The notes under the pieces were generated by a model, which was given only the letters and a program-made list of their open reading frames with translations, made no database searches and was not told the DNA's origin. Of a stretch of 39,854 nt of DNA, positions 2,206-6,569 are shown piece by piece (the first letter of the stretch is position 1; each line of letters starts with the position of its first letter). Made by a program: the position numbers and the translations under genes. Source of the stretch: Alphaproteobacteria bacterium (GTDB taxonomy: Bacteria > Pseudomonadota > Alphaproteobacteria > Micropepsales > Micropepsaceae); contig JAGWXR010000007.1 of NCBI GenBank assembly GCA_018969785.1, forward strand, positions 1 to 39,854, in the 5' to 3' direction.

Positions 2206-2282
2206 AGCGGGCGGGACGCCCGCGTTCCCAGCAGGCAGAGCGCGAAGCGCCAGTTCCCGGGAGCGCGGGCGTCCCGCCCGCT
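2206..2282. repeat. Near-perfect inverted repeat with 24-bp arms (REP/MITE-like)
   Basis: agcgggcgggacgcccgcgttccc (2206-2229) versus gggagcgcgggcgtcccgcccgct (2259-2282); one mismatch, 29-nt loop. Confidence 0.75.
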
Positions 2283-2297
2283 GTCCTGGTGACTTCG

Positions 2298-2347
2298 GTC
2301 AGCGCGGGGCCATGCGGATGGCGCCGTCGAGGCGGAGGCACTGGGCG
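2298..2347. repeat. 50-bp direct repeat, copy 1 (duplicate of SDR 3' end)
   Basis: gtcagcgcggggccatgcggatggcgccgtcgaggcggaggcactgggcg, identical to 5786-5835. Confidence 0.95.
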
Positions 2348-2420
2348 ATATTCACGCGCCACGCACCCCATCCTTTTGCGATGGAGTGCGTGTTTTGGCT
2401 GGTTTCTTGCGCAACCGCCA

Positions 2421-5035
2421 TCAGAAGCGCAACGATGCACCGATGGTGACGCGATGGGTCATCTCGTCATCCGTGTCGAGTTCGAAATCGGCGTCGTAAC
2501 CGGCATGCCAGAGAATGCCTCCTGCGTCCTGCTGGACGCCGAAGCCGACCGTCAGCACATCGCTGAAGCGACCCGGCATGGCGACTGCCTGGGTTGCCAT
2601 GGCGCTCGCCGCGGCCGCCAGCGATGCCCAGGCCGGGTCCTGATCGCCCGACATGTCGTTGGTGTAGTGCACATGCAGGGTCGGCCGGAAATCGACCTGC
2701 AGTGTCGCCTCGAGACCTGCTGAGGTTTCGAGGCGTTGGAAGTGGTAGGTGGCGAACGACACATTCCCGCCAGCGCCACCCGCCTCTGTGTATCCATCGA
2801 CAAGACCGCTTGCCCATGAGACGCCGAACACCGGACCGAAGTGAACCAATTCGTCCTTTACAAGGTAGCCGACCTTGGCCGCCAGGGCATGAGCCTGGCC
2901 CTCGGTATTGCCGACCGGCGACAGGCCGTAGGCGCCGGACCGGCGAATGTCTTCGAACCAGAGGCGCGTGAAGCCGTAGCTGGCCTGCGCGAAGAGGTTT
3001 TCGCCGGAGAAACCGAGATAGGCCGAACCGCCCAGTGCCGTGGCTTCGTGACCGAAACCGCCGGAGAGCCTGACATCCGCATTCGAAACGGTGAACGCGG
3101 CGCCGGCGATCGTGCCTGGTGCAATGCCTGTTTCGACACCCATCGTGCCATCGAGGGTCTGCGATACATAGCTGGCACCACTGATGACCGGATCGATGTC
3201 CTGATAGGTTCCGACCATCCACGCGCTCAAGCGGCCCTGATCTGTCATCGCCCCGAGCTGACGTGCACTGTCAACGTGTGCACTGATTGCACGGCCTGCC
3301 CCACGACCGGCGATGTCAATCGTCTCTGCAAGGGCGCCGACAACGACGGGCGTCGCTTGAATCATGGCCTGCAGGTAGAGCGGATCGACATAGGTCGGCA
3401 GGGTAAGACGGTAGACCATGAACATGTTGTCGTTCACGAAACCGCTGTTGTAGCTGTTGATTGTCGTTGTCCCGTTGGTCACGCCACCATTTATGTTGCC
3501 GTTGGTGGTCAGGAAGTCGTTGTCATTGCCCACAAAAAGGAAGACATCCTGCGGCTTTTCTTCCTCGAGTGTCGGCAGGAGACCCATGGCTTCCCACTTC
3601 TCCGACAGGGTCGTGAGGTTGGTGCCCGCGCCGGTCGCCAGGTTCAGACCGAAGCGGGTCAACTCGGTCGAATTGATCAGGTTGACGAGCTGCACCTGCT
3701 GAACGGGCACGATCGAGACGTCCAGCACGCCGGGTGCCGAGGTCACGACGCCGCCGGGCGTGGTTTCGCGCGCCGTTCCTGCGATGTTGGTGGCACCGGC
3801 CGTATCGATCAGCATGACCGACTTGAATACCGGCGGACGCCCATCGTTGCCGACGGCCGCCGTCGGGTCATTTCCCAAGCCGTTGCCATCGCGCGACAGG
3901 ACGAGAAACTGCGTGCCGTTCAGGGCGAGGATTTCGCTCTGCGCCGCGGTGCGGTTCGGTGCCTGGCCTGCCGTCACTGTTCCATTGGTATTGCCTCGGT
4001 TAAGAACCGGCAGTTCCATGACGTAGTGCGCCACGGGCGCCGTCGGGTTAGCACCTGAAATGTCGTAGCCAATCAGCCGTGTCGTGTTGCGCAGGGCGTC
4101 ATTGGACAGCGTTGAGTCCTGGAGCGTTGCGCTCTGCAACATTACCCACAGGGTCTTGCCGTCGGGTGTAATGGTCAATCCCTCGAGGCCCTGATTGAGC
4201 CTGCGGCCTGTCTGGCCGGCGACGGCATCGGCGGTGGTGAAGTTCACCACGCCGCCTACACGCGGCAGGATTGCCGGTATCGCCGGGATGTAGCCAATCA
4301 TCTGACCGGTTGCGCTGAAGCGGAAGATGCCGGTCTGGTACTCGTCGCTGACCCAGAACGTTCCATCCGGCGCCAACGCCACGGCCTCGGCATCGAGGCT
4401 GATGCGTCCTGCGCCGAGTCCCGAAGCGGGACCGCCAAAGGTAAAGCCGTTTTGCGTGAAGGTGTTCGAGCCGGGCTCAAGACCCGTGAACGGCGCTCCG
4501 GTGAAGTCGGCGAACAAGAAGCCACCGTTCGGTGACAGCGTCATCTGGTTCTGGGATGTGGTTGCCTGCGGAAGGTCGACGCCCGTGTAAGGACTGAAAG
4601 AGAAGTTCCACGCATTCAGGCGTCCGTTGTAGTTCGAAAAGAAGGTGCCAGGCTGGCCCGTTATCGCGAAATTGGGACCCCGGTCAGGCAGGGTGTACAT
4701 GCCGCCCGAATACTGGCCTGTCACGGGGTCTCTGCGCCAGGTGCTGTTAATGAAGGACATGCCTGAGAACGAGCCCAGCGTGTCGTTGTTGAAGTCACGG
4801 CCCGTCGACGTGTAGCGGCCCGCGCCAACCATGCCCTGGTTCGTGTAGGTGCGCCCGCCGAGGGCTACTGCCCCACGCCACCCGTTGTGTTGGGTCCCTG
4901 AAAGTTGGTTGACGTGGTCGGCGCGTTCGTCACCGTTATCGGCGTGGCTTGTGCCGTCGCAGCGCAGATTGCAAGGCAGGAAACGCCGGACAGGAACATG
5001 CCAGCGCGCACTCGTTTCATCGCATTCGTTTTCAT
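2421..5035 (-). CDS. Esterase-like-activity-of-phytase domain protein with C-terminal autotransporter beta-barrel; apparent frameshift near 4871-4874
   Basis: GLEGLTITPDGKTLWVMLQSA and TLPDRGPNF motifs (phytase-like PF13449 type); about 250-aa C-terminal barrel ending in ...VTIGASLRF. Signal peptide MKTNAMKRVRAGMFLSGVSCLAICAATAQA from ATG 5035 is in a different frame from the ORF 2421..5093. Confidence 0.75.
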
Positions 5036-5247
5036 GTTGACCCCAAGCCTCAGGGCGTCCCCCGACGCCTCTCACCCGGTGATTAACAGACATGGTTATC
5101 AGAAATATGTAGACGCTCCGGTCTGTGACAGAATGTCATGAGGGTCAATACGCTGGCCGTCTCACCGACGCCACGCTTGTCCGGACGCCTTTCACGCGAA
5201 CAATGGCTTCGAGGCTTCACCCAGAGGCGAGTTCATCGCCAGCCGTG

Positions 5248-5676
5248 TCACAAACTGCTGTTATTTATGCGCTGTCGTGCGAAGCCAAGGACCTCTTTGC
5301 ACATGTTCAGGTCTGACAACACGATTTCGTCGCCATCGAAGGCCGTGCCGGTTGCTTCCAGGTTCCGACTAAATCGACCCGCGTAAGTTTCGGCGAATGC
5401 CATGATTGCCCGAGGGACCCGCTGCAACGCTTCAGGCGAATTCACATCACCCTTGCCAACGACGACCAAAGCCGCCAGCAGGAATTCGTCGGTGGCTGAC
5501 CTTGCATCACGAGCCAGATCCTGTTGCCCCGGCAGCGCCTTGTCTTCACCCATAAGCGCGTACAAACTCCGCATGAGGCCTGCGCAGCGGATGAATGGAT
5601 AGCTCATGTCGGTGGCATCTGGCGCCAATGCGAACCACGATTCCAGGCTGTCGTCCAAAAGCGACGACTCTTCCAT
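5248..5676 (-). CDS. Hypothetical 142-aa protein
   Basis: In-frame ATG at 5676 with an upstream ggaga RBS; begins MEESSLLDDSLESWFALAPDATDMSY. The longer ORF 5248..6579 only adds antisense SDR sequence. Confidence 0.6.
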   Translation of the reverse strand: MEESSLLDDSLESWFALAPDATDMSYPFIRCAGLMRSLYALMGEDKALPGQQDLARDARSATDEFLLAALVVVGKGDVNSPEALQRVPRAIMAFAETYAGRFSRNLEATGTAFDGDEIVLSDLNMCKEVLGFARQRINNSSL

Positions 5677-5785
5677 GAGAGGTCTCCGAGATCTTCTTGT
5701 AAACCTTAGCCAACGTGTGTGGCGCCTTTGTGAACCCTGATGACTTGCTTGCGCTCGCGTCCGGGATGACGGGGTCATTGTGCGT

Positions 5786-5835
5786 GTCAGCGCGGGGCCA
5801 TGCGGATGGCGCCGTCGAGGCGGAGGCACTGGGCG
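5786..5835. repeat. 50-bp direct repeat, copy 2 (stop codon and last codons of SDR)
   Basis: Identical to 2298-2347. Confidence 0.95.
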
Positions 5836-6569
5836 TTGAAGTAGGTGTTGCGGGTGAGCTCGAGGACGAGGCTGGCGAATTCCTCGGGCTTGCCGAGGCG
5901 CTTGGGGAACGGGACGGAGGCGGCGAGGCTGTCGAGGACCTTCTGGGGCGCGCCGAGCATCAGGGGCGTTGCGAAGATGCCGGGCATGATCGAATTGACG
6001 CGGATGCCGAGATCCATCAGGTCGCGGGCGAGCGGCAGGACGAGGCCGTTCACGCCGGCCTTGGCTGAACCATAGATCACCTGCCCGATCTGGGCGTCCT
6101 GCGCGGCGACGGAGGCGGTGAGCACGATCGAGCCGCGTTCGCCGTCCTCGAGTTCCTTCAGGGTCGCCATGCCTTCGGCGGCGATCGAGGCCATGCGATA
6201 GCTGGCGACGAGGATGCCGTTCACGCCATAGGCATAGTCCTCGGTCGGGGTGCGCTTGTAGCGGCCGGCTTCCTTGTCGAAGGCGAGCGTCTTGCCGCGC
6301 TTCGAGGTCATGGCGCAGTGGACGAGAACGCGCTCCTGGCCGTGGGCGGCGCGGGCCCTTGCAAAGCCCGCGAGGGCGCTGTCCTCGCTCGTGATGTCGA
6401 CCTTGCAGAAGATGCCGCCGATTTCCTTCGCGATCGCCTCGCCCGCGGCTTCGTTGATGTCGAAGATCGCGACCTTCGCGCCCGCTGCGGCCAGGGCCTC
6501 GGCGCTTGCCTTGCCCAGACCCGACGCGCCGCCGGTGACGATGGCAGCAACCGTGTTGTCGATTTTCAT
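5787..6569 (-). CDS. SDR family oxidoreductase (3-hydroxyacyl-CoA dehydrogenase type-2-like)
   Basis: VTGGASGLGKASAEALAAAGAKVAIFDIN Rossmann motif; YGSAK catalytic motif; GIRVNSIMPGIFATP. Confidence 0.9.
   Translation of the reverse strand: MKIDNTVAAIVTGGASGLGKASAEALAAAGAKVAIFDINEAAGEAIAKEIGGIFCKVDITSEDSALAGFARARAAHGQERVLVHCAMTSKRGKTLAFDKEAGRYKRTPTEDYAYGVNGILVASYRMASIAAEGMATLKELEDGERGSIVLTASVAAQDAQIGQVIYGSAKAGVNGLVLPLARDLMDLGIRVNSIMPGIFATPLMLGAPQKVLDSLAASVPFPKRLGKPEEFASLVLELTRNTYFNAQCLRLDGAIRMAPR

Follow-up and report, generated by a model that had tools for sequence, protein, structure and literature searches.

The 39.85-kb window analyzed here, the whole stretch of DNA under study, comes from a draft assembly of an uncultured alphaproteobacterium (2.12 Mb in 210 contigs, 86.7% complete) and raises the question of how the 3' end of an intact SDR gene came to stand twice, in the same orientation, on either side of an autotransporter gene and an orphan open reading frame (ORF). 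Both the identity of the two 50-bp copies and the placement of one of them across the last codons and stop codon of the SDR gene had been claimed in an earlier note on this DNA, and both were confirmed. The copies at positions 2298–2347 and 5786–5835 match at 50 of 50 positions on the same (plus) strand, their identity breaks off abruptly beyond both repeat ends, and no such pair arose in 100 dinucleotide shuffles. On the minus strand, the 50 bp correspond to the last 46 coding nucleotides, the TGA stop codon, and 1 further nucleotide of the gene for a 260-aa SDR protein (5787–6569, minus strand; PF13561/PF00106). Copy 2 is the native 3' end of this gene, and copy 1 is a detached tail. The feature is real and recently formed, and most likely a scar left where DNA was acquired at the SDR 3' end.

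The repeat is confined to this locus. Within the window, no further copy of the 50-mer was found at up to 3 mismatches, nor any other repeat of at least 32 nt. When the whole assembly was searched with the 27-nt core of the repeat, allowing up to 3 mismatches, the core was found at 2 exact places and, with a single mismatch, at one more, where a paralogous SDR gene on C146 ends. A generic repeat, for which many genomic copies would have spoken, is thereby ruled out. The paralogue itself (C146, L036, approximately positions 731–770) is 68% identical to the resident gene overall, with nearly all of the last approximately 38 nt in common, a likeness that reflects either conserved C-terminal codons or gene conversion.

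Comparison with relatives bears on both the source and the age of copy 1. SDR orthologues in relatives have 84% to 88% protein identity, and in 8 relatives the tail matches at 35 to 43 of the 46 coding nucleotides, with all likeness vanishing just after the stop codon. Copy 1 carries the species-specific variants of the resident SDR gene where the relatives differ, indicating that it was derived from the resident gene, recently, and not from the paralogue. In three relatives, the orthologues differ at 5 to 9 of the 49 final positions (third codon positions differ by 31% to 40% over the gene), as against 0 of 50 between the two copies, which argues for a recent event. A tail identical to a true, resident SDR 3' end is also what would remain of a tandem SDR duplication after nearly all of one copy had been deleted, an alternative offered in the earlier note. 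However, no SDR pseudogene extends beyond the 50 bp near position 2300, none of the relatives has an adjacent SDR pair or pseudogene, and the atypical cargo would require a separate event, so that we regard this history as highly improbable.

Between the copies lie 3,438 bp (2348–5785) of atypical composition, holding a phytase-like autotransporter gene and a 142-aa orphan ORF. The G+C content is 60.8%, compared with 65.5% (sd 1.7) in same-length genome segments, and the tetranucleotide distance is 0.276, compared with 0.194 (sd 0.026; n = 268 in both cases); 2 of the 268 overlapping segments, drawn from about 30% of the assembly, are as extreme as the insert, for G+C and tetranucleotides alike. 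The compositional shift is clear at the SDR side of the insert and gradual at the left side. Homologous autotransporter genes elsewhere are not consistently lower in G+C than their own flanks, and the deviation is therefore not simply due to the type of protein encoded. Neither gene of the insert was found in 10 congeners, save for partial relatives of the autotransporter in 2 of them (41% and 38% identical). Taken together, the lineage-specific distribution of the cargo, its low G+C, and its odd tetranucleotide usage make a recent insertion likely, and the cargo was probably acquired.

The autotransporter gene lies on the minus strand, with an esterase-like phytase passenger (PF13449; Pfam E value of 3e-33) and a C-terminal barrel region at 2421–4875 and a signal-peptide segment at 4870–5034. 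The two are in different frames. Three-frame translation places the start codon of the signal peptide near 5034, and its frame stops before the passenger is reached, with the break near 4865–4880. In the homologues, signal peptide and passenger share one frame, unlike in the 890-aa ORF here, and the break represents either decay or a sequence error. Thus, both genes that the earlier note placed in the 3.4-kb interval are present, with the amendment that the first approximately 75 residues of the 890-aa ORF are in the wrong frame, and the out-of-frame signal peptide is an addition to that account. Another five genomes of the family contain homologues that are 41% to 49% identical over most of the length; the neighbors differ among these five loci, and none of the homologues stands beside such an SDR gene. 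The orphan ORF (5248–5676, minus strand) has codon-position G+C values of 0.60/0.45/0.65, like a real gene, and is without a match in the protein-family collections (Pfam, NCBIfam, PHROGs), in plasmids, phages, and viral contigs, and in 95 further genomes from the order. A plasmid or viral origin of the cargo was considered and rejected: the orphan has no plasmid, phage, or viral match, and for the autotransporter, viral contigs yielded no relative and large plasmids only distant ones. A terminator-like hairpin (2360–2392, plus strand; 13-nt arms, 92% complementary) with a T-run after it lies within the insert at a distance of 12 bp from the boundary of copy 1, and the autotransporter unit stops short of the junction.

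The explanation that we tentatively favor, with a probability of about one in three, is that the insert was recently acquired directly behind the SDR gene by recombination anchored in that gene. The incoming DNA would have carried the same SDR 3' end adjoining the cargo, and one side would have been joined by recombination within the common SDR sequence. The other side may have been closed by the same crossover, if the donor was circular, or by illegitimate joining 46 coding nucleotides inside the resident gene, as in homology-facilitated illegitimate recombination, and the outcome would be a second, orphaned copy of the SDR tail. Homology-facilitated illegitimate recombination is known from several transformable bacteria and, as a rare event, from E. 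coli (PMC3240628 and work cited there); one homologous and one illegitimate joint would leave such an asymmetric repeat. The boundaries found here would fit: one coincides with the stop codon plus 1 nt, and the other falls at an arbitrary point inside the SDR gene. Because the likeness among relatives ends after the stop codon, recombination between DNAs that share the SDR gene but not the downstream sequence would give exactly the left boundary observed, and a repeat consisting of SDR sequence plus 1 nt, with an arbitrary right boundary of copy 1, fits SDR-anchored recombination at least as well as it fits attachment (att) sites. From this anatomy we infer an insertion, its direction, and a homology-based rather than an integrase-based mechanism. 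Several points count against SDR-anchored recombination. No donor, in which an SDR gene is followed by the same cargo, was found among the loci of relatives or the homologue loci of the family, and no empty site either; 50 bp would be short for RecA if it were the entire homology; and the composition changes gradually on the left in a 210-contig draft that is 86.7% complete.

A site-specific event catalyzed by an integrase that is now absent would give the same picture, as in cis-mobilizable elements (CIMEs; PMC5704250) and the microcin H47 island (PMC3191183). The earlier note had read the repeats as attL and attR. By this account, which we hold to be possible but unlikely, they would flank a small non-autonomous island, CIME-like or microcin H47-like, whose recombinase acts in trans or was lost and which might still be excised. 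Direct repeats do stand at both ends of the foreign cargo, one of them within the putative target gene, and joining the copies in silico, as in excision, regenerates the gene end and leaves the SDR protein unchanged, which follows from any exact repeat at this position. The statement that no recombinase is encoded between the repeats was borne out, since the insert contains no recombinase ORF; CIMEs, however, lack such a gene by definition. Elsewhere in the assembly, itself 86.7% complete, PF00589 is matched three times, once over its full length (probably by a Xer protein) and twice in part, in no case on the contig of the insert, and the serine recombinase family PF00239 is not matched, so that no recombinase matching the element was found. 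Near the orthologous SDR gene, no PF00589 match was found in 9 relatives, the nearest being approximately 26 kb away, in G014.

Reuse of the SDR gene end by other elements was equally absent. Among 80 related SDR loci retrieved from 85,000 species genomes, with up to 10 kb on each side where the contig permits, none has a second copy of the SDR tail, and a recurrent attachment site at this gene was rejected on that basis. The clean single-copy junction that the earlier note proposed to seek by synteny was found in no relative, because the SDR flanks differ in every one of them. What stands of the attL/attR proposal is an insert acquired at the SDR 3' end; the independent tests lent no support to att sites as such.

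The core of the repeat does hold a dyad, CGGGGCCAT-GCGG-ATGGCGCCG, which none of 500 SDR-internal 50-mers matched under one of the three arm and spacer settings tried in a post hoc search. It is suggestive of an integrase-type event, yet most of it follows from the conserved C-terminal codons (GAIRMAP). The boldest extension, which treats the 3,488-bp unit as a minimal mobile cassette of two genes, attached at the conserved SDR dyad and mobilized in trans, is the least probable reading of all; if it were true, a surface autotransporter would be reversibly gained and lost. If the insert were mobile in any form, a very small cassette without an integrase would be bringing a surface protein to the end of a metabolic gene. 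Evidence for a mobile element is lacking, and the insert is a fairly ordinary accessory one.

Several known systems resemble the locus in part. CIMEs, decayed ICEs or IMEs that retain attL and attR, likewise have cargo flanked by direct repeats, one with the end of the target gene, and lack integration genes (PMC5704250). In contrast to them, the insert has no ICE or IME relative, its att function is putative, and it comprises only two genes in 3.4 kb. The microcin H47 island is similarly small, devoid of an integrase, and bounded by direct repeats, and it demonstrates that a small island of this kind can be mobilized in trans (PMC3191183); it differs in its length of 13 kb, its extensive imperfect repeats, and its measured excision and integration (PMC3191183), whereas the insert is known from sequence alone. 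The wzy locus of Salmonella Typhimurium DT8 also lies between two perfect direct repeats, there named attL and attR, but its reversible excision has been observed and strains in both states exist (PMC12074656); for the insert, the second state was not found. Exact repeats of a gene end may serve as marks of recent acquisitions, and such layouts alone are no proof of att sites.

The left flank of copy 1 offers a further explanation. A REPIN-like hairpin (2206–2282, plus strand) with 24-nt arms that are 96% complementary and a 29-nt loop ends 15 bp before copy 1, a proximity that also goes beyond the earlier note. All nine genomes examined from the genus, the source genome among them, contain its family of paired inverted repeats, and none of three genomes from other genera does. 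Genes of the RAYT type (PF01797, Y1 transposase) have the same distribution (9 of 9 and 0 of 3) and in several congeners stand between copies of the repeat (for example, G001:C24, G006:C268, G008:C95, and G002:C25), an anatomy that identifies the family as a REPIN/RAYT system. If the cargo and the SDR gene were already neighbors, 50 bp of the SDR end could have been copied by template switching or end joining into a break beside this strong hairpin, and such short templated copying would need neither homology nor a recombinase. Against a repair-made partial duplication stands the boundary of the repeat, which would have to land by chance no more than 1 nt from the stop codon, at odds of approximately 1 in 10 for an overlapping 50-bp copy, and the foreign cargo would go unexplained. 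We consider this route doubtful, ranking it behind the integrase-type event and ahead of an assembly artefact.

The last of these, which we judge improbable, would have the contig run through a collapsed 50-bp repeat, by misassembly or in a mixed population, for instance one with a chromosome and a 3,488-bp circle or with a variant strain. The assembly graph would look no different for a chromosome accompanied by a circle than for the integrated form, the assembly is a metagenome-type draft of 210 contigs, and several sampled contigs terminate in exact repeats of 41 to 47 nt, as detected by BLAST. On the other hand, the window contains no N, the junctions between repeat and insert have no common sequence that could produce a false overlap, and the core of the 50-mer is found with other flanks on no other contig.

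Other repeats are present to the left of the insert and within it. The intergenic elements at 1904–1938 and 1978–2069 have copies elsewhere in the genome, and the former occurs also in congeners. Just inside the right end of the insert, positions 5735–5772 are 89% like C123:1207–1244, which adjoins a copy of the 1978–2069 element.
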